NCBI GenBank assembly: GCA_014871385.1
Contig: CM026431.1
Coordinates: 15,986,450 to 16,050,449, forward strand
DNA length: 64,000 nt
Reading direction: 5' to 3'
Source: Ceratodon purpureus
Lineage: Eukaryota; Streptophyta; Bryopsida; Pseudoditrichales; Ditrichaceae
Within the stretch, counting starts at the first letter, position 1, and each line of letters opens with the position of its first letter. The notes under the pieces are model-generated. The model had not been told where the DNA came from. It ran no database searches and was given only the letters and a program-made list of their open reading frames with translations. The translations under genes and the position numbers were made by a program. Below, piece by piece: positions 41,295-62,966 of this stretch.

Positions 41295-41308
41295 TGGTGC
41301 CGGCACCG
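41295..41308. repeat. Dyad, diverged copy (TGGTGCCGGCACCG)
   Basis: This differs from the consensus by symmetric C-to-T and G-to-A changes at a CpG, as expected from deamination, and by its last base. It is the first copy after the composition boundary. Confidence 0.4.
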
Positions 41309-41813
41309 CGCTGAGCATTGGTCATATGCTTGCAGCAATGGAGGTAATCTTTTCGGAGTGGGTCGTTTAGGGTGTGAGCGAGCAAATTTAGGCCGTTTCT
41401 GCAGAAAAGTAGACCACCCGGTCGGTATAAAAATCAATGTTGTAAGAGACGGAAAACCCGTCAGAAACGAAAAATCTGAACCAACTCAATCATTCATCGA
41501 TGTCTCATACAGAAAAGTCATACATATATAATGTGATACATACACCAGACGAGTATACGATGAATACATGGACCAACATTCATCCCATATATGTACGTGT
41601 ACGTATGCAGGAAAAACAAGAAATACAACGTATGGAGAAAAGTCAGTGCAAGAATCATACACGACTTCGGAGTTTAGATGCGTGGAATGACGATTTGTCC
41701 ATTAATAGTAGCAATGGTATTACATTACACTGGAATTAAAACGGAGTGGCCAATACCACAAATAGACAGTAAAATCGATCTGGCCCTGAATCGATCCGCC
41801 GACCACATGGTCG

Positions 41814-41827
41814 TGGCGCCGGCGCCA
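41814..41827. repeat. Dyad, perfect copy, centre CG
   Basis: TGGCGCCGGCGCCA, a perfect 14-bp palindrome. The flank CAGCTGCGGAATTGATATACC at 41834 recurs with one deletion at 51395, which suggests some copies sit in a longer, older repeat. Confidence 0.8.
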
Positions 41828-42052
41828 GATGACCAGCTGCGGAATTGATATACCTCGTCACTGTAATTGTGGGTGACAGAATGTCAATTGTGGGCTGTAA
41901 CACCCCGACGTAATTACAACCGTTGGGACTGAAATTCACTTATCGACTCAGATACTGAGAAGGAATTCAACGATGAAAAACTGAGGAGTTTACTAAAGAA
42001 AAAAAATACAGTCCCCGGACTCAAAATTGGACACTACTCGGTCAGATTCAGA

Positions 42053-42066
42053 TGGCGCCAGCGCCA
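42053..42066. repeat. Dyad, full 14-bp copy, centre CA
   Basis: TGGCGCCAGCGCCA, 37 bp downstream of the inferred stop codon of the minus-strand gene at 42104-43008. Confidence 0.8.
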
Positions 42067-42103
42067 CCAGTGCCGCACCATATCCACGGAGCGCGAGACT
42101 CTC

Positions 42104-43008
42104 TCAGGGAGAACAACCTGCAAATGAACTTAGTCAATAAATAATCCAATGTATCGACGCCAAAAGGTAGAAGGAATATGCCATGAAATGAAAAATAACG
42201 CATAGTTACAAGAAGAAAAGATAGGCCCACATCGTTGCAGCCTCGAGATCGAGCGAAGCCAATGAATATGTGACTTGATCAAATGAAAACCTTGCTCAAG
42301 GAATGACGCGCACAAGTCAATATCAAAGCCAAAAAAGAATAAACATGTCTTACCTCGACAATAAGCCTCATCAGCATCAGCATCGGAGACAGACACGTCG
42401 TCCATCTCATCTTCCGCACACTCCTCCCCTGAATCTGAAAGGACAATAAGTGGAACAGCATTCCGTGAAGAAACAACTTTCTGAGGAGAGGCGCTCCGTT
42501 CGCGAGATCCGTCACTACGATCTCCATTTGGTGGTGTAGCTTGGTTCGAATTATCAGGCCCCCAAAGATCACGGCGCCGCCTTTTCTGCAGAGGAGATCT
42601 CGTCACTCGAGTTCTCGAAGACCGCTGCTGCATGAGGCGAACCTCCATGGGAGGATGCATAACGCCAGAGGCATTCGCAGCAGCCTGAAACGAAAGAATC
42701 GCTTTAGTTGTCCATTCCCCAGACCACGTTGGCTCTGCGAGGTCCCAAACAACTTTGAAACTGGGGCACTCCAACCCTGAAACTTCTTCAAACTCCGAAA
42801 CACTTCGCAGCCATTGTACTAGGTCAGACAAGGTCTTGGGTGCATCACGAAGATGCTGAAACTCATCCTGACGTCGAAATGCCGCACCTAACCAAACAGG
42901 CAAATCTGGCTCTTCCCAGTCAACTAGACCGACACAATGGAAATCACATTGTGGTCCGGAACTGCAACGCTTCTTGCCTTTCCTCGCATCGATATTCTCT
43001 GCTTCCAT
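42104..43008 (-). CDS. Hypothetical basic/acidic protein, two exons, about 222 residues
   Basis: Exon 1 runs from ATG 43008 (MEAENIDARKGKKR) to 42354, ending in the donor GAG/GTAAGA in phase 1. The proposed exon 2 starts at 42117 after the acceptor TTTGCAG and ends at TGA 42104, adding only a few codons. The N-terminal half is a globular-looking region with GLVDWEEPDLPVWLGAAF and FKVVWDLAEPTWSGEWTTK. The middle has a nuclear-localisation-type stretch QKRRRRD, and the C-terminal part is rich in Ser, Asp and Glu (SDSGEECAEDEMDD). No family is recognised. The open frame continues past the donor for about 75 codons, but that part looks like translated intron (Phe/Ser/His-rich). A nuclear location is likely, and function is unknown. 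Exon 1 is firmer than exon 2. Confidence 0.55.
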
Positions 43009-44027
43009 TGTTCCGATCGAAAATAATCTACTCTCAAGAGAAACACTACTACGAGACAATCTACAAAGCCCACTACACACACAAAGAAGATGAGGAAAAC
43101 AACCTTTAAAGGGGTACTTCTAAAAAAATGGCGAGGGTCGATGACTTATACCAAACAAGTTGAAGCAACAGAAACTGAAAGAGGAATGTACAAAATCAGT
43201 AAGAAACAGTATCAGATCTATAAGTTTCAAAAATCTCATGAACTAAATCTAAAATGATGTGTATTCACTGAGGCCGGCGCTTTAACCTAGACATCATTGC
43301 GCCGGATATCACCAGGTCGATTTTACAGGCCCATGGAAACGGTCGGGAAAATAAACGGGAATAAGAGAAATTAGAACTCCAAATGTAGATGGAAACATAG
43401 AATCCATGATGTCCAATTAGCGAAGAAGAATCAAAGACTCAGGCTGATCTAAACGATTGCAACACCTTAACAACATTTGCCCGATAAAACGGTGGCAGCT
43501 GGTGACGATTATAACGACGTAAGGAATCAACGAGTGTCAGGAGCAAATCACAAATAAAATCATAATTTACAAAGAAGATCCGATGAGGAAATCCAGGATG
43601 ATATAGACGAGATCAACTACATGCTGGATACATTGCAAATTTCTTATTCATAATAGTAAACGGTGACAGGTATAAAAGAAATGTCTGAAGAAGCAAAAAA
43701 TCTCCCCACCACACATAACACTTCGATAGATAAGACAGGGTTGGAGAAGCGTAAGGCATGAATTTCTCAAATATGTGCCTTTGAAACGATAATAGGCCGA
43801 AAGCACGATCAATTTATAATCTGAAAATACCACTTCAAAATTATGGAGATTGTTATACGAGCTATGGCACTTACAAAAACAATAATTATTGAGCGCAAAA
43901 ACGAACTTCTAAAGCAGATTTGAATTTAAATGAAAAAATCATTGTGATGATATGAGAACCACTCACTAACTAGTTGTCGCAAACACATGAGTTCAAAAGT
44001 GATCGCGCGAGTAACAGACAATCCATC

Positions 44028-44041
44028 CCACGCCAGCGCCA
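44028..44041. repeat. Dyad, diverged copy (right half intact)
   Basis: Eleven of 14 positions fit. The right half GCGCCA is intact and the left outer bases have changed. Confidence 0.5.
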
Positions 44042-44247
44042 TTCGGTGGAATTCAGATCGCGAATCGCGTTCGACACATGCCATAAATCCATTGGCGCAA
44101 ATGCATTAAGGTCGAGAGTAATACATTCTGTCGTCATAGATCATAGAACAAAACAATATAAATCAGCTACTGCAGAAATTCAGTAAATCAGATGGCCCGT
44201 AGTGACCACGGTATTCTTTTTGCGATACTAGCTGAATTCAAGTCGAT

Positions 44248-44261
44248 TGGCGCTGGCGCCA
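44248..44261. repeat. Dyad, full 14-bp copy, centre TG
   Basis: TGGCGCTGGCGCCA, in the intergenic DNA about 0.9 kb upstream of the zinc-finger gene at 45192. Confidence 0.8.
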
Positions 44262-45191
44262 CCTGAAAATGGCCGAAATTTTGAAAGTGTACCTGGTTCT
44301 AGCTCTAGGGTTCAGAAGTCTTGTTTGACGCCACCCTGGACTTGGATCCGATGAGGTTCAGTTGTGTCGCTGTTTAATGCAATGAATTTTTCATTTGCTC
44401 CACCAAAAAATAAAACAATTCAAAACTGTACTGTTCGGTTTGTGCTTCTAAATCTCCCCAATGAAAGGTGGGATATACATTCTGTGTACGTGACAGACTG
44501 TGACTGTAGACTTCTTATGCCGCTCGCGCAATGTGATGCAATTAAAACCTTAGAAGCCAATCTTTAAAAAGAATATATAGCATAAGAAGCCAATCATAGA
44601 AATGAATAAATACTATAAGAAATGTTAAATGAAGGTAAAATATCCAGTCGACTACAAATATCCAATTTCGACAACATAAGTATGCATAGTATAATAATCT
44701 GGTAGTACTCGAATTCCAATATATTCCCTCACTTCCATTCAATGACCGGCTGAGAACTTAAAATACAATGTGACCCCATAAAACATCCCAATCTATAAAT
44801 GTGCATTTATAAAGGCCATCGCCTCATACAAAATAACTATGAAAAAAAGGAGGAACTGTTTATAACAGCTCAACCATCATTTCGTAACGGCAAAAACGAA
44901 TGACATTTGAAGATTAATTAGCTTGGTTGCTCTCCAAATTAAAACCCAAATGATTTCTTAAAGAGCCTACCTGTCAAAAACTCTGGAAATTCACAAAACC
45001 ATCCCATCCAAAGCCCTCAGTGAAGTGTAAGTGGCTTGGATGGCCTTCGCAGCTGCAAGAAAATAGTCCTCAACACACTTGTCATCTTTTTTCAGGTTAA
45101 GAGGAAAGGAACTTCCAAAAAAAGTCTGTTGCTTAGCCGATGCAAAGCAGCGCTTGCTGTTGCCCACGGATCTAGGAAGTTCAGGTGCAGA

Positions 45192-46599
45192 ATGAGGAGT
45201 TTGAAGACTGAGCGAGGGGAGGAAGCATGGTTTGGACTAGAAGTGGGGCTTCCAATGATAGGACTGGATCCAACGAAGGACTGCAATCACGTATCCAACG
45301 AGGAGTTGCGGTTCTTTTTTGGAGAGAAGGAGTTGAAGAGGGGATACATGTACACTTCGGTGAAGGTTGTGTCGTTGAAGACGCGAGTAGAGGAACTCTT
45401 TCCTGCTGTTTATCAGACTCAGTCCCTTCCCGAGGGAAACTACATCCCTGAGAGTTTCGCCCGGGCGGTCGTATCCGAGGTCTGCCATCTTCACCCTATG
45501 AACTGGGCAAGATATGCAGCTGACCGATGGAATGGAAAGAAGAATAAAATGAAGTCCGAGCAGGTGCACCTACCAATTGTGCGATTCCAGGATGACAAGA
45601 CGCGGAATCTATTTATGGGAGCAGTGCTAGCGAGCCTCGATAGAGAGATAAAGGCAATGGGCGAAGAGCATGGTAGATCCGCCGCAGCGCATCACGCGGA
45701 AGTGAAGAAGGTGGAATCGCTACTGTCTGCACAGCCAACTCCGCTTCTTGATTATGAGCGAGAGAAGCTACAATTAGAGGTAAAGTTCCTCTACCCTCTC
45801 CTAGAGAAATCAGAGCAGCTACTAGACAGGATTCAGAAGATGAAGCCACTTTATATGCGGTCCGGAAATGAGACATTCATCTGCCAGTACAAGTCGGAAG
45901 TTGAGAGAGAGCTGGGGGAAGTGGACGCATTGAGGAAGCGGATTCGATTCCTGGAAGACCAGCTGAATGTAACAGACGATGCTGTGAACTCCGCAGTAGA
46001 GGAGGAGAAGCGCCTGAGTACCTTGAAAATGGAGCAGTGGTCTAAGCTCCAGGATCTCAAACGTCAAAGGGGGAAATTAGAGGAAAGGTCTAATTTACCA
46101 CTTTTCAGATGCCCAACCAGATTCATCGAAGAACCCGACCAAGCAACGGAAATATCGACAAAATTGCCATCGATCTCGGTACTCCCGTGCTCCTTGTGCA
46201 GATTAGGTTTCCCAAACATGGATATAATTATCGCACCTTGTCTGTGCACCTACCACCCCTGGTGCGTAACAATGCAGACTTGGTTACACGATACATGCGC
46301 CAATGGGAGCTGCAAGAAGAATTTTCCCGAGGGATGGAAACGGAGCTTCGGTCTATCCAGTATCCCGGGTAAGCTCCTGTGCCCATCCTAGCACATACAC
46401 AACCTTTTAGTAATTTGCTCTAAAAGAACACTGCATTTGATATACAGAAAAATTCTGATTTGCTGCGACTTTTGCTCAACCAGATCCATACGTCCCGGAA
46501 CCGAGCGCAAGGAGGGCGAAGGGGCATCTAAACTCAGACATTGGCGGGTTAAATTACAAACGAAAGCGCAAATCAACAGAAGGTATCAGAGACATTTGA
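45192..46599 (+). CDS. Coiled-coil protein with C4HC3 (RING-variant-like) finger and C-terminal basic motif
   Basis: Predicted 430 residues in two exons: 45192-46368 (donor CCCGG/GTAAGC, phase 1) and 46484-46599 (acceptor CAACCAG). An N-terminal domain (residues about 14-110) has GLDPTKDCNHVS, YIPESFARAVVSEVCH and MNWARYAA. A long coiled coil follows (about 155-300). A finger at about 333-374 has ligand spacing CX2C-X13-CXC-X2-H-X2-C-X10-C-X4-C with YHPWC at its heart, then W-x-R-SFG. The second exon gives HLNSDIGGLNY and a KRKRK basic stretch, likely for nuclear import. ATG 45192 is chosen because it aligns with the start of the paralogue at 57619. The frame is open upstream to 45036, but a splice acceptor at 45094 suggests that part is intron. 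A ubiquitin-ligase role is possible from the finger order but unproven. Confidence 0.8.
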
Positions 46600-47935
46600 A
46601 CTACAAATGACCGGGACAATCATTATCGTTTGAGATTTCCACAAGCTCTACGAACTAAAGACTGAGGCAGAGCTGGGCCGAATAAGTTGGCTTGTCTTTC
46701 ATTTCATTTTGACGTAGAAGTGATAGATTATATTACTTGTTGCTCTGTTGTCTCAATTTTGGTATCAGGTCGTGAGGTGGTCGTGCCAATTCACATATTC
46801 CAGTTTCTGAACAAGAAGCTGCTCATATGACACCCTAATAGATGCACTTGGAACTAAAACATAGTGATTTTCAGACAATTTATTCGGATGCCCTTGCTTT
46901 ATTTGCATATTATCGATACACTTTTTTGTATCTATTGATAACTCAAACCCATTCAATTTGTTCAATACTAGGCCGAGTCCACAGAACTAGCTCCGTCAGC
47001 CTTGTTCATGTTTACGATATATTGGTTTCCTCTCCCTTGAAGAAACTACTCAAGTTGAAGATTCCATATCTGCTGATTGAGTATCTTATTTCAGTCAGTA
47101 TATAACTTACTCACACTACCAATTACGAGTAAGGTATGACACGGAATCTTAACCCCGTCGCCAAACTTTAAATCTTGGAACGTCTGTCGCTGGAGAGGGT
47201 TGCTAGATAGCGACTAAAGCATCTTCTAAACAACTTACCCCTTTTCTCTGTATAAATGGACAATTACTTATAACGATGATAATCGATCAATGTTTTCCAT
47301 CCATTTGTTTCCGGTGTTGCAGCACGGGTAGCTAGAAAAGTAAAAACAAAACTGAACCATGCGTGCCCACTGCCTTCCAATTCCAGGGTATATACAGGAT
47401 GGCAGTTCCTGATTTCCAAGAAGAATCCATAGTGGACAGTTCTGATTCCTGAATCTGAACGCATGCTTATTCCGCAGCTGTTCAAACACCACTACATGAA
47501 GCTCACATGAATTTCAGGTTCACCTCATCAAAGATTTCATTCAACATTGTCTGCGAAATGTTCATACATATCAGAAAGGTGCAAACCCGAATGTTCAAAA
47601 TTCAAATTCAACGTTGTCTGCGAAATGTTCAGACATATCAGAAAGGTGCAAACACGAATGCTAAAAATTCAAAGGTCCTGAGGTTATGTTCGACACGTAA
47701 TAACGAACGAAGACAAGAAAATTGAATTCCGAAAGCGTTCTGAATTTTAGAATCAAATTTGAGAATGCAGAAATCGTTCAATAGTTCTCTCAGCAGAATT
47801 GACAGCCTTGCGCTATCTACGAAAAGGAAATTCCAATCACTGCACCATACTATCAGAAGTAGATCAGTGGATCACGTCTGTTTACTGCGGTAATCTGAGA
47901 GGGACACGAGCATTATAAAGATGGTTTCATACTGC
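46600..47935. other. Intergenic DNA between converging genes
   Basis: No gene was seen and no dyad copy was found. A 61-bp segment is imperfectly duplicated at about 47540-47660 (GTCTGCGAAATGTTCAKACA twice), probably a local tandem duplication. Confidence 0.45.
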
Positions 47936-49640
47936 CTACAGCCGGTTCAGGAAAATGACAAGAGCTCGCATATTGTCCACCTGAGAGTCCAGTTCGAGGC
48001 ATACTCCTCCATACTTTGCTTCTGCAGCCGATAATTCTAGTTCGAGCTTGTCCACAATCATGTGTTGTCTCTGCAATTTGAACTCCCAAGCACCTATTCG
48101 GTTCCGTGCCATGTCCACGATCTTCGAGCAGGAGATGACGAGGGACTCACAGATATGGTGATTTTCCTTTCCTCGGTCACTCCCATCGAGACAAATAGAT
48201 GACTGTGGATCACCTTGGGTATTCTTCAATACTGAGCAAAAGCTTTCGTACTCTTTAACGGCGCGGTTAAAAGTGTCTTTATTCTCTGTAAGCTTCTTGT
48301 TCACATGCTTGAGTCGCTCCTTTTCTTCTTCCAGGTGTTGAGTGATGCAGGCTACAGGGCCGAGTGCTTCATGACGAGCAGTTCTCAGACGCATTTGTTC
48401 TCCGTCAACGATTCTGTGGACAACCCCTCTCAGTACCTTCAGGGCGGACATAGCTGCATCTTCCATGGTCGGGGAAGCATCCTTGTTATCCATGCTACCG
48501 ATGGGAGAAAGTGGCCGGGTTGGATTCATGAAGTTGGTCTTCGTATCCTCAATGGGAGTTGAAGAGGAATGCTGACTCGAATTAGGGGGGAGAGCTGAGG
48601 CAGGGTGGGCAGGCTTACAGTGGAGAGTCCGCCCCAAATCCACCGTCGTTGTCGGAGCATGTACAGGGTCCTTCAATTAGAGCACAAAGAAATCAATCAG
48701 TAGGCCATTATTACATAGAATTTACGATAAACGTTTACAATAATGCAAAAAAAAATCCTATCTATGCATTGATATGAAGTACAGCGACACTATGCCAGCG
48801 GTTAGGGTTAAAATTAAACCATGCTATTTTTGCACAGTTTTCTGATGATCTCCAACCCTATTTCAAGTACGACTACAGTAATGAGAAAAGGGCTTCAAAA
48901 TGCTGTCAAAGAATACGGTTTAGTTAGTTTAATCAAAGAAACTAAGAGAGCTAAGGCCGCACTTCGATACGGATACATGACACTCAAACGGCTTCAAATG
49001 GATATGAAACAGGGGACTGAGTGATCGTGAACCGAAAAACGTCAGACTTCTTCGGTGGAACATCGGAATAAAGAAAATTCACATCGAGTTGGACCATGGA
49101 TAATAGCACGTATACTTGAACCGAACACGGCCCGAAGTCGTGGCGCAAGGTGATGTAAATGCGGCAGGCATGGAACGACATCAGGGACTGTTGGAAACTA
49201 ACCTTGAAGTTTTTGAAGGGGATAACCTTCTTCAGCGGTGCAAGCGGCTCCATAAGGCATTTGAATTCTGGCAGCAGCCGGGGGAGTGGACAGTGACGCT
49301 CGTGGAGGTGGGTTTCCGTGAACGCAAACTCCGCCCAGTTAACGTCAACATCCATCGCCTCCGCTACTAACGCGCGAGCAAACTGAAACGGCAAGACTGA
49401 AGTAATTGGCCACTTTAACTGGAGAGCTCTCTTAAAAAGCTCTCGAACATACTCGTTGTATTCAAGGCTTCCATGGTCATTGAACGTGAACCCATTGCCG
49501 GACCTGGGCCCCCAAAACATCGCAAGAGCTGCTGTGGACGGCATCAATTCCTTAGGAGCGAGCGTAGGGACAATGCCGTGACCATTGAGTCCCATGAAAA
49601 CTCGAAACCAGAGAATTGAACACTCGATCTTGGGATCCAT
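47936..49640 (-). CDS. Coiled-coil paralogue lacking the zinc finger
   Basis: Two exons: 49640-49203 (donor TTCAAG/GTTAGT, phase 0) and 48670-47936 (acceptor AATTGAAG), giving about 390 residues. An in-frame ATG at 49667 would add nine. The start at 49640 (MDPKIECSILWFRVFMGLNG) aligns with the starts of the two zinc-finger paralogues. The first exon holds the same N-terminal domain in diverged form (LPFQFARALVAEAM and VNWAEFAF against the SFARA and NWARYAA motifs). The second exon starts with a Ser/Pro/Thr-rich region and then forms coiled coils (HLEEEKERLKHVNKKLTENK). It stops without any Cys/His finger or the HLNSDIGGLNY tail. It may act as a dimerisation partner of the finger proteins, but that is inference. 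The intron of 532 bp is the longest in the cluster. Confidence 0.65.
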
Positions 49641-50386
49641 TCTGAAGCTACCAGGGAAATCACCCATGAGAGAAGAGACGAAGTAGAATAAGCACCGCCA
49701 ATTTCAACTGGGGTGCATATGCGAAGGTATACTCAATCCGAGGCTGCTGAGGAGAAAGAGAGAAGAGGAGAGTTCAGTACAACAGAAAATCTCCTGCTGT
49801 GATCTTCTGGTATCATGATTTCCACATTGAGGCAAGGAGTCCCACCATCAGCCGGATTGAGGAGCTAACCTGTCATGTCAACTTGCCTTTTCAGCCAGAA
49901 TACTGTCATCTCAATCAGGATCAATGCTACCCTTATTTTATAATTAATCAAGTTCATAGATTTATCAGATACAGATGAGGGTGGGTCTTGTTTACAAGTG
50001 TAATCGTCGATTGTGACAACCAAGATTAAATGAAAGGCTGAGTTATACGAGGTTGGTGCTTTGAAGTATCAACATTTTCATGTCCTGATCTAAACCTAGA
50101 CAGGCATTCTAGGTGTCAAATTCTTGGACGTCCATCCAAACATTATAAATCTTTGCAAAGATGCTGGACACTAGAATAACTGCATAAAATATCCGAAAAA
50201 CGGTAATAATGAACGCGTCCATCCCTAATGGCACGAAAACTGGAAACAACACCACAAATCTGGATGTAAAAAAAAAAAAAAAAAAAAAAAAAGAGCTTCA
50301 AAGAAACTGAATACGGACACTCCTTTAAAGCTATAAAAGGAAAAAAGAAAAAAAATGAATGGAAACTCGTTCAATGATGCGGAAAA

Positions 50387-50400
50387 TGGCGCTGGCGCGG
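50387..50400. repeat. Dyad, core exact, centre TG
   Basis: TGGCGCTGGCGCGG, with the 10-bp core intact and the right outer bases changed. Confidence 0.7.
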
Positions 50401-51085
50401 TCCAATATAAACTTCCGGAAGTAGACTGCATATCAGAATTCTCACACAATGAAACTGGTTATACCACAATCAATAATTGAACATCTGCAATTTGGCTCAA
50501 CCATCAAGAGACGAAAAAAAGTCCAGAGCCTAAAATATACCAGTACAAGTGACTTGTTTTCATGCTTAAACTACAAAACATAACTATTCCAATCATGATG
50601 ACCAACTCACTCCCAAATGAAAACATTGACACGATGTCTACTGTTCTTTTTATTAATTATTTTGGTACAACAATTAACAATGTCGAGGCAACAGAAAGTC
50701 TACCGCTTAAATTCTTTGAGTGTAAACAGATAAAACAAAGTCCTCTGCTATTAAAAATATCAATATTGAAGTGAAGGTGTCGCCTCTTCTGGTAAGTGAA
50801 CAAGAAGACCATGCTTGATCAAGCTATTTCGAATATCCTTCCGAAGCGTGTTGCAAAGAAGGACAGCATTTTAACTACGAATGGTTCGATTAACGATTAT
50901 CTCAAGAACACAAGGTCTCAAAGTACAATCTTCTCCCTTGAGCATCTGTTCAAATTAGCCATTTATAACTTGTTACAAAAAACATGCTTCCAAAACTGTG
51001 CACTCACTTTTGTGAAATTTCAAAAGGATTGAAACATGAAATTCAAACTGATCTTATTCATGAACAGCATCAAGATGGGGTCACC

Positions 51086-51099
51086 CGGCGCCAGCGCCC
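51086..51099. repeat. Dyad, core exact, centre CA
   Basis: CGGCGCCAGCGCCC, with flanks shared with the copy at 51950. Confidence 0.75.
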
Positions 51100-51949
51100 T
51101 CTGCAAAAAATCGTAAACTTGAACGGTAAAAGACGGTCCAAACAATTACGAACTATGGACTTAAGAATAGAAGCGTCTGTAAGCACTTAGTACGGGTACA
51201 CTTATAGACCAGATTTTGAAATAAAGATATTACGTTCCTATCGGATCCTTTAGGGGAACAAGACGACTCATGTACATAAACATTGCAATAATCAACACAA
51301 GTAATTAGATACTCATGCCAATGGACTCGTAACTGAAACCTGGTTTAGATAGCGAGAATAATTTGACAATTGGAACCAGATAGAGCACCCTCATCAGCTG
51401 CGGAATGATATACCAAATTCGATATACTCTCTTACACCTGTCAAAAACGAAAAAAACTAAACATTTATCAAATAACGGTGGTCCATTCAGTTAAATTCAT
51501 CCCAGAAATCTCAATTCCACACAAAGACGAATAGGTACAAAACTAATTAAATTAACAGACACACTCTACTAACTTGTACGTCATTTGACTTGAGACATGT
51601 GATTCTCTGGAAAAATTAATACTTGGTCTCCCTATACAAACAAGTCCAAGGGAACAAATTAAAAGCCCAGAGTTGAGTATTCATGGAAAATCAAATTAAT
51701 AATTACTAAAAACTGCCTTTTTCCAGCGTACTCAGCTGTCCTGAAATTCAACTTTCATATGGGAGATTAGCCAACATCACTGCATGCAGCGGAACAGCTA
51801 TCAAAAACCTAATCAAACAGAAGAAGATAGCACGCACGAGAATTTATAAACCGGTGTTGTATTTTAGTGACTGAAATATGAAGAACGAATTGATCAGAAA
51901 ATGAAACGAAACAAACTTAACATATGAAAAGCATCAGGATGAGATCACC

Positions 51950-51963
51950 TGGCGCCAGCGCCC
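51950..51963. repeat. Dyad, core exact, centre CA
   Basis: TGGCGCCAGCGCCC, with flanks shared with the copy at 51086. Confidence 0.75.
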
Positions 51964-52152
51964 TCGGACAATGTCTGTGACTATGAACGGTACACACAGC
52001 CTTGGGTAAAAATTTCAGACTCAGACCGTCACCAATATTAACATGAGAATATATATGACAGACATCAAAATAGTATGCAACAGATATGCTAGAAAATGAT
52101 TACATTGGATTTCTCGCAGATTATGAAAATAGAATAGTCCCTAAGTTTCAAA

Positions 52153-52166
52153 TGGCGCCAACACAT
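52153..52166. repeat. Dyad, left half only
   Basis: TGGCGCCAACACAT, with the left half intact and the right half degraded. Confidence 0.4.
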
Positions 52167-52374
52167 CGCTCGCTCTTTTTTCTGGGTCTACACAAATGAA
52201 TACAAAATCTAGATCACAATCAGCTGGCTTGCATGGGAGATACTTATCACAAAAATCACGCTGCGAATATACAAAACACGCCATCTCAATATCCAAGCAA
52301 TGTCCGTGTCTATGTCGCAAAAACAACGCAAAGTCCACAGACTTATCCGAACCCTGAGGGGCCGTTCCTGTGAA

Positions 52375-52388
52375 TGGCGCCGGCGCCG
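52375..52388. repeat. Dyad, core exact, centre CG
   Basis: TGGCGCCGGCGCCG, 148 bp downstream of the stop of the gene at 52537-53193, a position comparable to the copy at 60269 beside the twin gene. Confidence 0.8.
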
Positions 52389-52536
52389 AATGCATTCAGA
52401 TGATACTCTGTACATACCGGTATGAATAAGTTTTATGGTTACACTTGTGACATCGTTACGCTATGTATAATCGAAAATAGGAGTTTAGAACGAATCAAAT
52501 AGTACCTGGAATTCCGTCGAAAGCCAAAGTTGCCAA

Positions 52537-53193
52537 TCAATCCAAGCGATCCAATGGGGTCACCCAGATCTGCACTGCCGACTTCTTCTCTACATTCTGG
52601 ACTGACTTCGTCAACACGTTGCGCACTTTCGCAAGCTCGGACAATGACAACTTCGACAGGGGGGAGTTTAGTTCGCGCGTTGATAGCGGGGGATGCCGAA
52701 AACAATGCACCGGGATAGCTTTGGACTTCACAAACGCATTTAGGTTAATCCTGAAATTGCTAATGGGATCCGATTTATTGTAGAAAGGGTGGGCAGGATC
52801 AATCTCAACCGGCGAATATCCTGCGAAAATTACCAGTTTAATTTGCAGACAGGATTCGCACATATCAGAATTAGGTCTTGGCAATCATACATAAAGACAA
52901 CAGACTGCGAGCTCAATTTAGGTCAAGTGAAAATGCATACCAGTCCCGGTCGATCCTTGGCGATATTGGTCCGCTTCTGACCTTGCCAATCGCCACGCCG
53001 CCCATTCGGCAGTGTCTTCGATGCTGGATTTCCAGACGGACGAGACCGCCCAACACCTCCGGAGTCTCTGTAGCACCTGTTTCAGCGCTATCCTGTCTAC
53101 TGTGCACTTTTTCCTGCGATTCAGGGGAGCTCTTAGTTTCGGAAGGATGTTCCGAACCACAATATCATTCGGTATACAAGAAATGAAATGCAT
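52537..53193 (-). CDS. Hypothetical protein, F-box-like start, twin of 60408-61130
   Basis: Two exons, 53193-52941 and 52820-52537, joined in phase 1 (donor GACTG/GTATGC, acceptor TTTTCGCAG), give 178 residues. The start MHFISCIPNDIVVRNILPKL has the look of the first half of an F-box (xIPDDVVxxxLPKL), but the rest of an F-box is not clear. The middle has SSVWKSSIEDTAEWAAWRLA, and exon 2 has INLNAFVKSKAIPVHC and the end IWVTPLDRLD. Both exons match the gene at 60408-61130 in length (253 and 284 nucleotides), with roughly two thirds identity in exon 2 by eye. Retention of frame, splice sites and stop in both copies argues that the gene is functional. No function is assigned, and SCF-type ubiquitin ligation is only a possibility. 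Confidence 0.75.
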
Positions 53194-53838
53194 GTTGCCT
53201 ATTTGGGACGTAGTTAGCTCCGAAACAAACTACAGTGTAGGTTTAGGGTTCGAGAACTCAGGTTGTATGAATTAACGAATCGATGGCGGTCGCAAACCTG
53301 GGCACTCTCTGAAAGCCCTTCGAGTTTCGTTGCTTTAGTCTTCCATCCATTTATCATTAGGATGCAAATCACTGCACTATCTTCCACTCCAAATCACCTG
53401 GCCAATACCTATAAATTAGTGATTTGTGGGTTTTCTGAATTCTAGAGGTATACTGCTCCGTAAGTTGTTTACCATCTCATTCGTAATGTATTTTTACTTG
53501 AGGTTTTCTCGGTTTTTGGGCTCAAAATGATGGAATGCTCTATTGGACTGGGTATGAGATTCAGATGAAATAAAAGATTGTTTTCAAAATGGGGGCCGAA
53601 ACGGGGCCGAAACGTGGTTTTCTAAATGAAAATGATTTAAATTTGAATCAACGCAAGTATGCTCAAGGCAAGTATATTTATGGTGTCAGATTTTCGACAT
53701 ACTGAATGGACTCTACCTATTTCAATTTCACTACACAAATGCCGAGGCTTGTTCAAGCGATTTTGCATCTAACTGCCAATTCAATTATCTGGTAAATGTA
53801 TAATTGAAAGATCAAAAAATACTAGGATCCAGTTCAGC

Positions 53839-53852
53839 TGGCGCCAGCGCTC
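53839..53852. repeat. Dyad, core exact, centre CA
   Basis: TGGCGCCAGCGCTC, intergenic. Confidence 0.7.
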
Positions 53853-53971
53853 TTCGCGAATAACTTTGACTGCTCACTGTTCGAATTAGCAATATTAAAT
53901 CATCCCCGAAATCCGATTAATTTAAAGCTTTCTGTAAGAATCGTAATTTCCAGTTAGAATCACCTGGCAAG

Positions 53972-53985
53972 TTGCGCCGGCGCGT
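53972..53985. repeat. Dyad, core exact, centre CG
   Basis: TTGCGCCGGCGCGT, intergenic, 120 bp after the previous copy. Confidence 0.65.
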
Positions 53986-54241
53986 CCTCCTTTGGTATCT
54001 GTACTTTGGCTCCATACATGTTCCAATTCATAAAGACATCGAATATCGTTTCATTCGCCGCGAGCAGGAAAATGTACTTATTAAACCTCTTCGATCGGTA
54101 CATCAGAATGTCGTGACCTTTTTCATAAAACCCACGGGTCCACGAACTAAAAAATCAATTGCTCCAATTCGGGTGCAAATCACCCAAGCTTTGTTGCAGA
54201 CCTCGTGATTTCTGGAAAGATAAGAAGTTTCTACGTGGACA

Positions 54242-54255
54242 TGGCGCCAGCGCTT
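54242..54255. repeat. Dyad, core exact, centre CA
   Basis: TGGCGCCAGCGCTT, intergenic. Confidence 0.7.
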
Positions 54256-54528
54256 TATGCTGATTTTGATCACGAGCCTATTCTCCAGTCCAATAGAAAT
54301 GTAGATATTTCTCTAAGGGTACTGGTGAATTTGTCAAGAATTACGAAATCATGCATTCTATATTGCTAGGGTCGTTTCGAAATCTGAATTCCATGGATAT
54401 TCGTATATAAGATAATGGCCTCCACCTACTCAGCGGACGCTCGTCACAAAGTAATTTTGTTTTGTCGGTTGGTTCCTTTAAACCTGATATTGTTATATAT
54501 CAGATTACCTGGGTATATAATGAACGGA

Positions 54529-54542
54529 TGGCGCCGGCGCCA
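54529..54542. repeat. Dyad, perfect copy, centre CG
   Basis: TGGCGCCGGCGCCA, extended by flanking A and T to a perfect 16-bp palindrome (54528-54543). Confidence 0.85.
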
Positions 54543-54720
54543 TGGTGGTCACAACATACATGTTTAAAATATGATAATTGGAAAATACCAGTGTAAACTG
54601 TTATAATTGTAAAATCCAGGTTCTGTTGACACGGCATATCAGTGTGAAATATGATAACTGGTATCCACTACCACATAAAGACATTCTCTATCTACACATT
54701 ATCTCATGTCAAGCCGAAGT

Positions 54721-54734
54721 TGGCGCTGGCGCCA
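54721..54734. repeat. Dyad, full 14-bp copy, centre TG
   Basis: TGGCGCTGGCGCCA, with outer T and A extending the dyad by one pair. Confidence 0.85.
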
Positions 54735-55025
54735 ATCGATCAGTATGCCCTCAGGCTCTATTAGGATGCGAAACAATCGAACTCCCGTGCGATTCGAATC
54801 AAATTCTACATTGTTGAACACATATATGCCATAATTATAACTGTTCATGTTCGTCGTCAATGAATCGTCGGGACGCGTTACTTACCTGTATAGACGAGGA
54901 GTAACTTAGAGTTTCCTTGGAAGTTCTATTTCAAATATCCAGTATGAGATCCCAAATTTACGATGAAGAAGATCCGAAAGCGGATGCAAAATTGTTGAAC
55001 CGTATGCGAAATTTCATGTTTACAA

Positions 55026-55039
55026 TGGCACCGGCGCCA
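55026..55039. repeat. Dyad, one change, centre CG
   Basis: TGGCACCGGCGCCA, a single G-to-A change at a CpG in the left half. Confidence 0.65.
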
Positions 55040-56044
55040 TTCGTGTTCCCATACGGATTTTCAGGACGAGATTCAAAACATTTTTCTTTTATGAAGCGAT
55101 TTCCATTGAGTGTCCACGGAAGAATCAGTATCGCATTCTGTCCTTTACTGTCCATTCTAACAATCTCAATAAACAGATTTACAATATAGCGATTGAAGGG
55201 TACAAGTGATCGGAAGATTGACAGCATAAGTATTTTAAGAGTTCCTATGTGTAATTTAGAGTTTAGATACTTGAAATGTGGAATTTAAAATATTTAGGGG
55301 ATCTCGTTACGCAAGGTTATCTGGAGTAGGTGTTTGCTCTTATCCTCACTGTGTGAGAGTTACATTCCAATGCTTATAGGATTTGTGGGGATTGAAACAC
55401 CACCAACCCCAAACAAATATCAGCAAATACACTGTTTCAAAACAAAACTGCGAATCTGTAAAGCGTAATAATCAGAATTGCTTTGCTGACTGAATGTAAA
55501 CAATTTCGATATTTAATTCAGTTTCATGAGGAGGAGTAAAATTCAGAATTTGTACGCAAAAAAAAGGGTTCAGTTCGAATGCATCTTACTAATCCGAGAG
55601 ACTGCCGGGAATATTTCTGCTAATTGGAGTCAACATAGTCACTACAAATAGTGTCCGCACCGCCTCGATTTTGCATTGAAAGCATAGCGATGAAGCGGTA
55701 TTCGAGATAACATGACGGCGTTATAATTCTTCTCGGCAATACAGGTGCTCTTGATCTCTGTACTCTAGACGGGTAATCCTCCGTAGTGCCTGCAATCAAA
55801 CATTATTTTCTGTTGAGATACCTTGGAATTGAATAAAAAAATTTCCGGGGAAGAGCAGTAATTGAGAGCCTACTGACTGCACTATATTGAATGACTCAGT
55901 GAAAGAGAAATGACTGAAATCCCTACCATAGAACCACCTAGGTTCAGTACTATTTTAGAAATCCAAGAATATGCTATGGTTAGTATTTCAGCAACGACAG
56001 CCTAACCGAGGCAATCTTTTAGAATTGGTTATCTTATTTACCCG

Positions 56045-57619
56045 CTATTCGACGCTCTCAGCACTGGACTCCTTTTTCTTCTTACGGCTGGAGGAAGCAA
56101 TTGCGTTATAGTTCAATCCTCCTATGTCAGAGTTCAGGTGTGACCGACGCTTCTGTGGATCATTATATACCTCAGTCTCAAACGGCCCTGAACCAAATTA
56201 GATATTTAAGTCATTAGAACTTATCTCCAAAGGGCATTGCATTCAGACATTCCATAGTGGAGCGCTGAATGCCATCTGAATACTCGAATAAGAATTCGAC
56301 TCTCTGAGTACTCAAAGCATGTGTGGAACATGATCTTAAATTTAAACCAAGTTCATTTCTGGTATATCATTTCAGAGATAAGATGAAATTCCTCTAAAGC
56401 AAGATTGTGTGATTTTGAAGGCAGTATTTAACCAAGATAATCTCGATAAGAGAGAAATATAGATCTGATTGGAAAACATACCTTCAGTTTTGTAATACCC
56501 AAAGCTTTTAAGCCATGAAGGAGGAAATGGTTCGTTGCACATCCGACTTGCGCAATTTTCATCAATCCAGGTTTGCATGGAAATGCACCATGGATGGTAA
56601 AGGCATGTACAAGGAGCAACAACTATATCAAGCAAAGGAAATGGAGATTTGCAGAAAGCACATGCTTGCACATGTATCACCTGCACGTCATTCGTCAAAA
56701 TTGTTTCTCCGATGTATGGGCTTGGAGTCCTGGTCAGAGGAATTCTGGACTTTGCCTCCAACTGTCCTAGAACACGCTGTGTCTTCTCCACACTGGAAGT
56801 CAACCGTTCACGTGTTGCCCTTGCGCTCTGTTCTTCTTCAATCGCATTCTGAAGGGCACTCTCCGCTACCATTCGACTCTCCAGTTTCTCACGAATCTCC
56901 TGCTCCAAACCTGTAATCTTCTGGAGCGCCGCGGAAATTTCGGCCTTGTACCACTTACAGAGCCCTTCATTGCCGCATTCTTCAATGGAGCCTTGTGACT
57001 TCCGCCAATTCTCCAACAAATCATTCGCGGATTTTAACTGCACATGCAGATTCTCCAATTCCAATCGCTGCTTAAGTCGCTCTCCGACATCATCAGGGTT
57101 CTGCTGCTTCGCTGTCAGGATTTCAACCTCCCTACACTTCCGTTCGAGAGTTTCCTCTGCAATCTTCCATTCCTCCGTGGCGGCCTCTACCAGCTCTCGA
57201 AGATGATGTGCCGCGACCTCGCTGTATTTTTTCTGGCCGCCGGCCATGAAGACAATGTCGCCACTCACGTTGCGCTGAACAACATCTCCCTTTCGAAGCC
57301 CTGCGGCGTATCTTGCCCAATTCATCTGAGTGTGGTGACAGACTTCTGATACCAACGCCCGCGCGAAGCTCTCGGGAATGAAAGTAACCTCCGGCGTAAG
57401 TGGGGTTTGATAAATAACCGGCAACAACTCCACCACGCGGGACCTAACACGCTCGCACTTCGCTGCTGTATACTTGTAACCCATACTCCTAACCTTCGCA
57501 CCGAAGATTGAAACTAATTCGCTATCGCTAACATGGTGGCAATCTCTGGCCGGATCCAACCCTACGTTCGGCAATCCTAACGTGACGCCAAAGTGTCTCT
57601 CCTTCGCCTCGAAGTCCAT
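56045..57619 (-). CDS. Coiled-coil C4HC3 finger protein, paralogue of 45192-46599
   Basis: Predicted 426 residues in two exons, 57619-56482 (donor TGAAG/GTATGT) and 56187-56045 (acceptor GGTTCAG), joined in phase 1 exactly as in the plus-strand paralogue. Domains are in the same order: an N-terminal domain (about 9-106, with GLDPARDCHHVS, FIPESFARALVSEVCH and MNWARYAA), a coiled coil (about 135-290), and a finger (about 320-361) with the identical ligand spacing including YHPWC and MQTW, then SWLKSFG. The last exon has HLNSDIGGLNY and RKKKK, a likely nuclear import signal. The open frame extends 41 codons upstream to 57742, but only the part from MDFEAKER aligns with the paralogue, so ATG 57619 is preferred. 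The finger could bind an E2 enzyme or protein partner. DNA binding is not excluded. Confidence 0.82.
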
Positions 57620-57971
57620 GTCTGCCTTACTTTTCGCTAAAAACGCTGTGGGGCACCTCAAACTGCGTTGCTTTGAGTCAAAAAGTTTCCAACAGCTGGT
57701 TACGTAGATGATCCGAGACAACGGATTTCTGCACAACGGCATACTAGCTCAGAAATAGACTCCTGACAATCATTCGAAAATTGTGTAATTTAATTGAAAG
57801 ACGCGAAGAAACGTTACCCAACAACCTCGGCTTGAATGTCACTTCATTTAATTACATGTACTGATAAACTAGATGAGCAATATAATTGTCTTAAGGATAT
57901 GGAGTGGCTCTCAGAAAGCAATATGATTGTTTTAAGGATATGATTGTCCTAAGGATATGATAAGGGGCAAC

Positions 57972-57985
57972 CAGCGCCGGCGCCA
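57972..57985. repeat. Dyad, core exact, centre CG
   Basis: CAGCGCCGGCGCCA, about 350 bp upstream of the start codon at 57619. Confidence 0.7.
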
Positions 57986-58152
57986 AATGATCGCTGTTAT
58001 AATTAGCAAAGAGACCTAAATAGCTACAGCAGGAGGTAATGGCTGTAGGGGGGGCGCTGATGCGAAGGTGGGCCGGGTCGGGTGTGAGTGCACTGGTGAA
58101 AGGGGGGGCACCATGCGGCACGGGCTGGAGCGGGTGCAAGGGCGAGGAGGGA

Positions 58153-58166
58153 CGGCGCTGGCGCCA
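58153..58166. repeat. Dyad, core exact, centre TG
   Basis: CGGCGCTGGCGCCA, followed by GGTGAC, the inverse of the GTCACC found before the 51086 copy. Confidence 0.75.
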
Positions 58167-58313
58167 GGTGACATTTGAATTATACGACTCCAAAGATTTA
58201 TAATGAAACAACCACAGAGTCGCCTTGAAATTATCATACCAATTAATAATGGATCCTCGATGCACTTTGATAATGGAATTAATTTGAAGCCAATCTTTGG
58301 GTAGCATATCAGA

Positions 58314-58327
58314 ACGCGCCGGCGCGA
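58314..58327. repeat. Dyad, core exact, centre CG
   Basis: ACGCGCCGGCGCGA. The central 12 bases form a perfect palindrome with a different outer pair from the consensus. Confidence 0.65.
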
Positions 58328-58486
58328 CTTCCCCAACAAGCAGTCAGTGCAAGCTGAGTTTCTACTAGGTCACGTTAAACCATTTGGAATACTAGGCTCT
58401 GCTACACTAAATGATCGAGTATGCTTTTGTGAATGATCGTGTATGCTTTTCGTGTATACTTTAAAGTTGTGTCTTGCGAATTGCGG

Positions 58487-58500
58487 TGGCGCCAGCTGAA
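58487..58500. repeat. Dyad, left half intact
   Basis: TGGCGCCAGCTGAA, with the right half degraded. Confidence 0.45.
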
Positions 58501-59868
58501 ACAAATTCTGAAATATTATGTGATATGTAGTTTGGATCATCATAGTTCGATATTACAGGACTGCTCAAACAAACTTGAATTGGATGTTTGTGACATTTCA
58601 AATCAAATTTTGTGTCAACGAATATATATAAGGTAGAAACACCCGTAACCAACAACTTAAAGCAGTTTAGCATATCAAAGCTTGGGTTATCGTCAAGGAG
58701 ATATTTTTGGTTCATAGGAAAATATGGTCCATGAAGAATGAGCATTTATCCATAAATAATCTCCTAATATTAAAATTTTTACAATTTTTCAAAGTGAAAA
58801 GTACTTCCGAACCAATAGCCGATAAATACAAATGAGGTACATCTGTTCTTTTATAATCTAGGAATTAGAAGATTTCGGCTATTGGTCATGTGTCGACTAT
58901 AGGTGTGTCAACCTTATGTAGCTGCCATATTATTTATCCTTCATTTCATATTATATATTACTCCAAGGGACAGCTTTTGTTATAGAAAATTGTTGTCACA
59001 AAGTAGAATTGTTGTCACAAAGAAGAAATTTTAGAACTTGCAATATTTTTTCACGAAATTGATTCGATCCATTTAGTGAGGTGAAAGTTGATTTTATATT
59101 TTTTCCGTACTATATACACCCTTATATAGTGACGTGTATTACTTAGTTAAATGGAGAAAGAGCGGGAGCAAAGAGAACGACCACAACTTCGCCAACTTAC
59201 CTATTAACGATCGTCGTCATCTAAGCAATATAGCAGTCATTTTCCATAGCCGCTCTGATTACCCCACAAGCCCATAGTTTAAGCTATGAAGGATTTAAGA
59301 TTTTGAAATATTTATTTATCTTTTTAAAGGCAATATATTTACTTAAAATTTTAATTTTTCTGGGCATCATGCAACGACGAGCCACAAATTCGAGTAAATT
59401 CGACTGAAGTATATTTTCTAGTAAATTCGACTGAAGTACCTCCTACTCACACTGTTCGTACTAGTAACAAGTGATTTGTACATGGATAGTCGATAATCGC
59501 AAACTACTAAATTGTCTATGCAAGTAGCACAGGGTCTTGATGTGGTATTTGACAACACTTCTGATAATTCACACTTGTTGAGTTGATATTTGGACAGGAT
59601 GAGAGAGTTCACCGTCGTTTCTTCTCATATGATCATGATTTGAATGCTGTTTATTAGTATGACTCGGATCCCGGTCTGCCAGTATGATCTGGGCCTCTGT
59701 TCATGTGGACGATTATGTAATAAATTGAATTATTAAAATGAATTTGATGTGCTTCTTGTTTCTGGTAACCTTTCTCATTGCTAATATAAGTACCACATGT
59801 CCAAACAAAAACAAGTATTTTGACAACTTCCAATGAATTGCTGCAATCGCAGGAGTTCGATTCATTTT

Positions 59869-59933
59869 TATTTATTTATTTTTTTTTGAGACAAATGGTG
59901 AAAAATCCATTTCAAAAGGAACGAACATTACAA
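59869..59933 (-). mobile_element. Extremely truncated LINE 3' end
   Basis: The 65 bp after a T-rich run (TTTTTTTTTGAGACAAATGG) match the 3' end of the LINE at 18600-18660 (TTTTTTTGAAGCAAATG and the following CATTGCAGAAAGG-like block). A near-identical 14-bp direct repeat, GTTCGATTCATTTT and GTTCGATTGATTTT, lies at 59855-59868 and 59934-59947 as the target duplication. It is a dead-on-arrival insertion of the same LINE family. Confidence 0.65.
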
Positions 59934-60061
59934 GTTCGATTGATTTTTGAATCCTTCTTTTACGATTTGTATTCTGTATAATCTAATCGTCCTGAAATGC
60001 AAAGGCGTTTGCACTCATCGGGGACCCTCTGCACTTGAATATTGAATACCTATCTACCGGA

Positions 60062-60075
60062 TTGCGCCGGCGCCA
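60062..60075. repeat. Dyad, core exact, centre CG
   Basis: TTGCGCCGGCGCCA, intergenic. Confidence 0.75.
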
Positions 60076-60268
60076 TTCCATATTCCGCAGTGCACAGTTT
60101 ACTAAGTCTACACAGCATTGCCTTCAAATCTAAGTTCTGTGGAACGCAATGTAAACAACTCACACTTTTGTAAACATGCAGCCATTACAGTTGCAGCTAT
60201 CCGCTAGGTCATCTATTGCTGTCGCTCGACATTCTAAAACTTGGAAACTGCCAATCGGAAGCCCAACT

Positions 60269-60282
60269 TGGCGCCGGCGCCA
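60269..60282. repeat. Dyad, perfect copy, centre CG
   Basis: TGGCGCCGGCGCCA, 125 bp downstream of the stop of the gene at 60408-61130 and so probably in or near its 3' untranslated region. Confidence 0.85.
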
Positions 60283-60407
60283 GTCGTCAGACATTGGAAA
60301 TGAGGCGCCGTCGATGTGGTTTGGAGACATCATCGATTCACATACTATGTGTATTGTATTGGATTTATATTGCGTTGATGAGATGATCATGTAGCCAAGT
60401 ATTGGCG

Positions 60408-61130
60408 TCAATCCAGACGATCCAAGGGGGTAACCCAAATCTGCCCAGCCGATTCCTTGTCGATCCCGCGGATGGACCTTGTGAGAACGTTACGAAGTTT
60501 AGTAAGCTCGGCCATAGATAAATTTGATAAAGGACCACCTAATTCTTCTGGTGTAAGTGGCGGATGCCTCCTACAATGGACCCAGATTGCCTTCGACTTT
60601 ACAAATGCATTCAGGTTCATCTTGAAGTTCTCGAGAATGTCCGATTTCCCGTAAAGTGGATGGCTTGGATCAATGTCAACAAGCGAGTATCCTGGACATA
60701 TCACAAGTGAATTTGGTATCCCTCAATATCAAATTTTAACCTTGCCAAATAAGGCTTAACAGACAAAGCTTGCCACAAAAAGTCTGACCAACAACTCATT
60801 CTGGGATCGATAGAAGCAGGAAACTACGTGTGCTATTAATGCTGCTGTAGAAGGTACAAGGAATCAAATTTCAATACCTGGCCCTGTTGATTCAGCGTGA
60901 AACTGCTCCGACTCCCAACGCGCCAAACGCCATGCAGCCCATTCAGCAGTGTCTTCGATGGTTGATTTCCAGACTGACGACAGCGCCCAACACTTTCGAA
61001 GCGTCTCCAGTAGTTGCTGCATTCCGTTATGGTCTAAGGTACTTTCCTTCCTTCTATTAAGCGGAGCTCTGAGCTTGGGAAGAAAATTTCGAACCACCAC
61101 GTCGTCAGGTATACCGCTAATGAAAGACAT
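60408..61130 (-). CDS. Hypothetical protein, F-box-like start, twin of 52537-53193
   Basis: Exons 61130-60878 (donor GCCAG/GTATTG) and 60691-60408 (acceptor TATGTCCAG) join in phase 1 to give 178 residues, the same exon lengths as the twin. The start MSFISGIPDDVVVRNFLPKL resembles the first half of an F-box more closely than the twin does. SSVWKSTIEDTAEWAAWRLA is nearly unchanged, and the end is again IWVTPLDRLD followed by TGA. A non-synonymous-rich but frame-preserving divergence is visible, as expected for duplicated genes kept under constraint. It reads in the same direction as the zinc-finger gene at 56045-57619, which lies downstream. Function is unknown. Confidence 0.75.
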
Positions 61131-62511: not shown

Positions 62512-62934
62512 TTACCAGTCACAGCCAGGAAAATCGGACATCACCAACCTGCGCCGCCCTTCCATTCGCGGAGTATCCAGCGCCGATGCAGAAAGACGCA
62601 CCGCCTCGGGGTGAGTCAGGTCCCTCACAATGGTGTCGTGTAGTGTAAGCATTCGCTGCGCTCGAGATGGAGTGTACCTCCGCTTTGTTGCGTGGCTTTC
62701 ACGAAGCACAGTGTCGTGCAACCTAGGATCGTCGCCGTCACTAGCGTCTCGCGGACTCTCTCGCGGAGTAAGGAAAACTTCCTCCTCCTCTTCTAAGAAC
62801 GACCATTGATCTGCCTCCTCTTCCTCCAGCACTAGAGTCCGCTGCAATGTCTTCCAAACTCCCTCGCTCACCTTTCGATACCTGCGCTCTTCTAAGCACC
62901 ACTCACGTCTATCCCTGCCACGGTCAGTCGTTCC
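62512..62934 (-). CDS. Possible exon of an unrecognised gene
   Basis: The frame is open from 62934 (after an in-frame TAG at 62935-62937) to TAA 62512 and reads REWCLEERRYRKVSEGVW, then acidic EEEEADQWSFLEEEEEVF, then an Arg-rich part with a short internal repeat LHDTVLRE / LHDTIVRD. There is no ATG near its 5' end, so it is either an internal exon or the 3' part of a frameshifted gene. In the adjacent frame, ATG 62966 opens MMEFDRLDHRRERLTVAGI and then stops. The end, GACTG/GTAAGC, also looks like a splice donor. The charged composition is not random for this DNA, but no family is recognised. Confidence 0.35.
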   Translation of the reverse strand, partial: GTTDRGRDRREWCLEERRYRKVSEGVWKTLQRTLVLEEEEADQWSFLEEEEEVFLTPRESPRDASDGDDPRLHDTVLRESHATKRRYTPSRAQRMLTLHDTIVRDLTHPEAVRLSASALDTPRMEGRRRLVMSDFPGCDW

Positions 62935-62966
62935 CTACGGTGATCAAGCCGGTCAAATTCCATCAT

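Follow-up and report, generated by a model that had tools for sequence, protein, structure and literature searches.

The dyad and its locus

We analysed a 64,000-nucleotide stretch of the genome of the moss Ceratodon purpureus, hereafter the window (C11:15986450-16050449 of the 362.5-Mb assembly), whose right-hand part carries many copies of a GC-rich 14-bp dyad, two inverted half-sites TGGCGC around a 2-bp centre. The dyads lie inside a giant DNA transposon, bounded by terminal inverted repeats (TIRs), which enters the window at position 41,341 and also carries the genes A to G (Table 1). We regard it as practically certain that the dyads belong, in many copies, to the interior of a family of giant DNA transposons in the moss nuclear genome, whose members measure about 42-49 kb and have TIRs, 9-bp target-site duplications, a single IS256/Mutator-like transposase gene and several genes specific to the family.

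An earlier note on this DNA had counted 17 exact cores (GCGCYRGCGC), six of them with all 14 bases, confined to one segment and absent from the first 41 kb. These counts hold, against 0.01 cores expected in dinucleotide shuffles, and the exact cores span positions 41,814 to 60,282. With any 2-bp centre and zero to two arm mismatches, there are 18 sites in 41-61 kb and 2 in the rest of the window. A decayed copy that the note had placed at 41,295 is present, but with three mismatches, and it stands outside the element, the TIR of which begins at 41,341. The fixed 2-bp centre and the conservation between diverged copies support the view that the conserved unit is the dyad itself and that its form is that of a dimeric protein site. 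The flanks, described as different for most copies, are mostly non-homologous, except in the pair 51,060 / 51,924, which has 69 nt in common at 75%.

The dyad flanks are nevertheless not fully free of preference: in 22 of 36 half-sites C-purine stands 4-3 bp outside the 14-mer, compared with an expected frequency of 0.109, in a set of 18 window sites from which one of two homologous sites was dropped and in which two near-matches were included. Beyond the window this preference is weaker (72 of 156 halves), and only 12 of the 1244 sites in the genome combine a CA/TG centre with CA/TG on either side. We gave up an oriented, asymmetric flank motif, since it can be read as the symmetric C-purine preference. 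By eye we also considered Helitron 3' hairpins, tRNA primer sites and E2F sites, and set them aside for want of consistent neighbours; Rfam at gathering scores gave no match in the window.

The genome-wide count proposed in the earlier note, made with the exact 14-mer, yielded 1244 occurrences versus 0 for the reversed control; our genome counts are lower bounds. Among the 50 sites listed, all on C1, 48 fall into three blocks, which we analysed as D1 (C1:670-730 kb), D2 (2690-2720 kb) and D3 (20255-20365 kb). These dyad blocks are copies of a giant DNA transposon. Across 274 kb comprising the window, its right flank and the three blocks, all 97 cores lie within element segments (97/97 in 179.9 kb) and none in the 94.1 kb outside, with D2 taken as element, D3 taken as element up to the end of the analysed stretch, and 18 of the 97 cores belonging to the second copy of a 34.6-kb duplication. 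This duplicated segment lies in D3 (C1:20.28-20.36 Mb), and its copies share 98.6% identity. Among 13 dyad loci from genome scans, from which three further loci within D1 were excluded, ten lie no more than 1.5 kb from element genes, element DNA or a TIR, and an eleventh has a transposase 23 kb away. The earlier note had set against its own reading the case that all copies are parts of one long known transposon. Our finding comes close to that case, as the copies are internal parts of one long transposon family, but dyad surroundings mostly differ from site to site, and Pfam left the family's long open reading frame (ORF) unnamed.

Within the elements the dyad is rigid in form and loose in arrangement. 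In three elements the arm spacing GGCGC-N2-GCGCC occurs 58 times, and N0, N1 and N3-N8 not once; the centres of the 97 cores are CG (41), CA (24), TG (21) and others (11). Dyads occur at about one per 1-2 kb of element. Adjacent dyads are 130-250 bp apart in 25 of 84 gaps versus 6.5 expected (maximum 16 in 2000 uniform placements), only one gap is shorter than 130 bp versus 7.6 expected, and many exceed 400 bp. The nearest to tandem units are a 150-bp triplet in D1 and a 75-bp pair in D3; otherwise the dyads are dispersed. When three elements were searched for a second motif, the top lists contained only dyad-like words, simple A/T words and modest excesses.

The giant element, its copies and its genes

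Similarity between the window and D1 starts abruptly at window position 41,341 and C1:718,414, at GAGGTAATCTTTTCGGAGTGGGTCGTTTAGGGTGT. Since an inverted copy of this end lies at C1:675,407 (3 mismatches in 35) and GCCCCATGG flanks both ends, D1 is a transposon of 43.0 kb whose target site is duplicated over 9 bp. Genome-wide, the first 140 bp of this end in the window (41341-41480) have 38 matches, and six complete elements were found, of 43,008 (C1), 47,889 (C3), 45,097 (C4), 43,529 (C5), 49,305 and 42,280 bp (both C6). All six have matching TIRs at both ends; the target-site duplication is a perfect 9 bp in five and 8 bp, read by eye, in the sixth. Mutator/MULE elements generate target-site duplications of 8-11 bp, mostly 9. 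The TIR matches of D2 are weak (10 and 8 mismatches of 35) and have no matching duplication, and a right end of D3 was looked for and not found.

An unpaired, wrongly oriented end at C11:16114193 is preceded by CATTGCTGC, the reverse complement of the duplication GCAGCAATG, as predicted, and the window insertion is thus split, the cause being either an inversion or the way a scaffold is oriented across an assembly gap. At 628 bp from this displaced end stands a dyad, with a counterpart in D1 at 626 bp; dyads occur near both element ends (451-827 bp). A transposase match with one stop codon is found 11.2 kb inside the displaced end, as in the C1 and C3 elements.

D1 (1603 aa) and D3 (1482 aa) have a long ORF in common, together with further ORFs in the same order. 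For its 791-aa core, 57 matches were scored of 3388 candidates; they are 59-100% identical, and 43 lack an internal stop. Each of the six complete elements has one transposase match, which is partial in the C6:108.8 Mb element. Recent activity of the family is suggested by these 43 matches of the 57 scored and by the window TIR, which agrees with the TIR of the C3 element at 99% identity. Seven transposase matches have equal score and frame length (1142.3 bits, 1402 aa), e.g. at C8:11131349, C8:12971358, C10:12816073 and C11:17224049, which points to a burst of one subfamily in the very recent past.

On weak evidence, which includes DDE-like residues judged by eye, we read the long ORF as a putative divergent Mutator/IS256-type transposase. 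Its sole database homolog, P0007 (34% identity), has a SWIM finger (22.8 bits, Pfam cut-off 19.6), and the catalytic half of P0007 matches the IS256 transposase profile NF033543 weakly (E 0.0031, 16.5 bits versus a cut-off of 150). Pfam left two pieces of the D1 ORF (915 and 284 aa) unnamed, without a match to PF10551 and without a SWIM match in the C-terminal piece, and the D1 core had no match in NCBIfam. PF10551 (MULE) itself occurs at at least 93 genome loci (150 of 384 candidates scored), none of them in the six complete elements. A single-sequence AlphaFold model of P0007 was unusable (mean pLDDT 31.5). Dyads also occur inside the transposase ORF, where they are read in frame as MAPAP, three times in D1 (50-residue steps; C1:686.4-691.2 kb) and twice in D3 (25-residue step; C1:20300.2-20304.7 kb), in a stretch that appears disordered by eye.

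The gene families of the window recur elsewhere: E/F in D1, D2 and D3, the families D, A/B and C in D1, and D, A/B and G in D3. Genes E and F have an invariant C-terminal C-C-C-C-H-C-C-C pattern, RING/PHD-like, behind a likely coiled coil; the homologs of E include a Ceratodon purpureus protein (35%). The VPLIVLSDS motif of gene D is one that we take to be SUMO-interaction-like. A conserved run of element ORFs at C1:677.6-682.7 kb, perhaps one multi-exon gene, contains a DGNHRAIA (ParB/Srx-like) motif, and downstream of it the motifs VLDLTAAVGKWTT and VDLIICDTPDNS resemble DNA methyltransferase, for which a confident profile match was not found. Sequence searches of the conserved element ORFs in PHROGs, NCBIfam and PDB gave no confident name, and no viral genes were recognised among the element ORFs scanned.

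Table 1. Features of the giant element within the window (positions in the window; TSD, target-site duplication)
Position	Strand	Feature	Remarks
41332..41340		9-bp TSD GCAGCAATG, left end of element	Reverse complement CATTGCTGC immediately before other TIR (C11:16114193)
41341..41383	+	TIR, GAGGTAATCTTTTCGGAGTGGGTCGTTTAGGGTGT...	38 genome matches; six pairs with TSDs
41341..64000		In-window part of giant element	Continues past the window
41814..41827		Dyad	Exact 14-mer
42053..42066		Dyad	Exact; identical in C1 copy
42133..43008	-	Gene D	SUMO-interaction-like motif VPLIVLSDS; homologs in D1, D3; motif in 4/4 ENA homologs (P0008-P0011)
44248..44261		Dyad	Exact; identical in C1 copy
45192..46388	+	Gene E	Coiled coil and C-terminal Cys/His module (RING/PHD-like by eye)
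47936..49703	-	Gene C	Two ORFs; diverged E/F relative, linked via D1 ORF 49953-51425
50387..50400		Dyad	Core exact
51086..51099		Dyad	Core exact
51950..51963		Dyad	Core exact
52375..52388		Dyad	Core exact
52540..53229	-	Gene A	Probably two exons; unnamed family
53839..53852		Dyad	Core exact
53972..53985		Dyad	Core exact
54242..54255		Dyad	Core exact
54529..54542		Dyad	Exact 14-mer
54721..54734		Dyad	Exact; 13/14 bases in C1 copy
55026..55039		Dyad	One mismatch; exact in C1 copy
56375..57619	-	Gene F	Paralog of E; C1 element protein 90% identical
57972..57985		Dyad	Core exact; identical in C1 copy
58153..58166		Dyad	Core exact; identical in C1 copy
58314..58327		Dyad	Core exact; 13/14 bases in C1 copy
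58481..58494		Decayed dyad	C1 copy with intact core and TA centre
60062..60075		Dyad	Core exact
60269..60282		Dyad	Exact; identical in C1 copy
60411..61166	-	Gene B	Paralog of A
62515..62934	-	Gene G	Family common to D3 element

Conservation of the dyads and CpG state

In the comparison of the window with D1, the dyad columns are 95.2% identical (120/126), versus 75.9% in the aligned noncoding DNA outside dyads (4698/6190) and 80.6% in the flanks near dyads (444/551). A dyad or near-dyad stands at the same place in all nine alignable sites, of which five are identical, three agree in 13 of 14 bases and one in 11 of 14. In the same comparison CpGs were kept at 23 of 24 positions in dyads versus 128 of 226 elsewhere (Fisher P 9e-5).

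Outside the dyads, the noncoding DNA of the window element has a CpG observed/expected ratio of 0.90, compared to 0.57 in window positions 1-41,340 (0.71 in a LINE stretch, 0.46 and 0.50 on its two sides). The element thus seems to lack the mutational mark of long CG methylation. Two element pairs retained 248 of 420 and 102 of 179 CpGs, close to the expectation from squared identity. The CpG-poorer left part of the window contains a LINE-type reverse transcriptase (18747-22154) and a Tc1-like transposase (7669-8483).

A possible role in keeping the element active

The dyad is a palindrome of fixed spacing, conserved, arranged in trains and present on both sides of genes, and we therefore infer that it is recognised by a dimeric DNA-binding protein. 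It is probably a binding site, one that may help the elements to stay switched on. Such a protein would contact the two half-sites TGGCGC over the fixed 2-bp centre of each dyad, in loose trains of sites that are often 130-250 bp apart and lie close to where genes start and end. Occupancy of many sites could then keep the noncoding DNA of the element unmethylated and its genes expressible. The binder may be encoded by the element, in which case the coiled-coil Cys/His proteins of genes E, F and C would be the first candidates, or it may be a conserved host factor. We favour anti-silencing, because the VANC proteins of VANDAL transposons are the closest precedent, and we give this mechanism slightly less than an even chance; the favoured explanation taken as a whole seems to us evenly poised between right and wrong.

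VANDAL elements are a class of Mutator-type DNA transposons of Arabidopsis. VANC is encoded by the element, its motif is dense in noncoding VANDAL DNA and methylation is lost throughout the element (PMC5735166, PMC10398659); VANC21, for instance, binds YAGTATTAY in noncoding VANDAL21 DNA and induces methylation loss (PMC5735166). The likeness lies in a Mutator-type element, a short motif that is dense in DNA of its own family, chiefly in the noncoding part, and signs of reduced methylation. The VANC21 and VANC6 motifs are 8-9 bp long, non-palindromic and often in tandem repeats, those of VANC21 arrayed in one orientation, whereas the moss dyad is a 14-bp palindrome with a rigid centre, mostly dispersed and constant across diverged elements of about 42-49 kb. 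With MULE/IS256 elements the moss family shares TIRs and the 9-bp target-site duplication, and the transposase homolog P0007 has the SWIM finger and the weak IS256 match; the family differs in gene content and size and in that none of the scored PF10551 loci lies in the six complete elements. Teratorn measures 41-182 kb and has TIRs and a piggyBac-like transposase (PMC6431247). Like Teratorn, Starships and Mavericks, the moss element spans tens of kilobases and carries many genes besides the transposase; Starships use a tyrosine recombinase, whereas the moss element looks, by weak evidence, IS256/Mutator-like.

Several observations weigh against anti-silencing by a VANC-like system. No VANC-like protein was recognised by sequence, and the targets of VANC proteins vary considerably among related elements (PMC5735166). 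The moss dyad is the same despite transposase cores of 59-77% and E-family proteins of 34-37% identity, which fits a conserved host factor as well. The conservation test covers the alignable nine of 19 window dyads, with ten lying outside the aligned pieces; the null for the dyad gaps, uniform placement, ignores exclusion from genes; and for two of the 13 dyad loci sampled, no element could be assigned. CpG content is an indirect measure, and three host-type stretches are also less CpG-depleted (0.77-0.83). A third element pair kept only 24 of 82 CpGs versus an expected 0.486, and ordinary transposable element pairs kept 2/10, 10/16, 26/37 and 4/11, all under squared identity, with just 10-37 CpGs each.

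That the motif stays constant in elements whose proteins have diverged speaks for a conserved binder and makes a host transcription factor a serious rival, in which case the dyads would be promoter or enhancer sites of one dimeric factor, most likely a conserved host factor, with no anti-silencing involved. The sites that both copies have conserved upstream of gene F, at a distance of about 350-1010 bp, the unchanged motif and the rigid 2-bp spacing would all suit such a factor. Sites 130-160 bp past the 3' ends of genes A and B and the in-frame MAPAP sites within the transposase ORF, which are unusual for promoter sites, speak against it, and we consider it rather unlikely. The dyads might instead serve transposition, replication or partition, either as parS/Noc-like sites for a ParB-like element protein or as internal transposase sites. 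Bacterial ParB/Noc sites are dispersed palindromes of about 14-16 bp over large DNA, and the moss dyad resembles them in size and dispersal, with sites across the whole element and near both ends; however, those systems are bacterial, and the ParB-like match in the moss element is very weak (phrog_1033, E 0.53). The DGNHRAIA motif of the conserved element gene makes a ParB-like protein conceivable, but only as a lead, as this ORF is unmatched in NCBIfam and has a weak TUTase match in PDB (E 0.006). In addition, the half-site was not found in the first 64 bp of the window TIR, so that recognition of the ends looks separate from the dyad, and we hold a role in transposition, replication or partition to be improbable.

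The preference for gaps of 130-250 bp and the near absence of shorter ones could also reflect insulator or nucleosome-phasing sites that partition the element genes; given the many gaps above 400 bp and no visible strict phase, this is less probable still. The earlier note had also considered a nuclear counterpart of the mobile GC clusters of some organelle genomes. Independent mobility of this kind would suit the different flanks of most copies, but it is not borne out: position is common to all nine alignable sites, and the 94 kb examined outside the elements hold no core, which leaves it almost no likelihood. Just as little can be given to ordinary host gene clusters with a common regulatory element and no transposons, which would account for several paralogous gene families in one place, but not for TIRs and target-site duplications in six of six elements with a transposase match in each.

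In plants, DNA transposons that exceed 40 kb and carry many genes are, to our knowledge, unusual. The 2021 Ceratodon genome paper by Carey reportedly mentions an undescribed DNA transposon superfamily; in our literature search none of the titles listed describes the present element, which is not proof of its absence from print. Anti-silencing by the dyads could be part of a larger picture, which we put forward tentatively and with somewhat more doubt than the mechanism itself: giant plant DNA transposons that form a superfamily or deep lineage not described before, and are still recently mobile, might possess their own dimer-recognised code that shields about 45 kb from silencing. An element-encoded or co-opted host protein would then mark the element as its own through dyads that are placed even inside the transposase gene.

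The rigid, conserved dyad offers a direct handle on these transposons, since a 14-bp probe could be used to pull out the protein, and the dyad count alone indicates elements. If the protein is encoded by the element, sequence-specific anti-silencing would gain another example, from a plant distant from Arabidopsis and based on a motif that did not diversify, and this would test whether such systems require rapid motif turnover.

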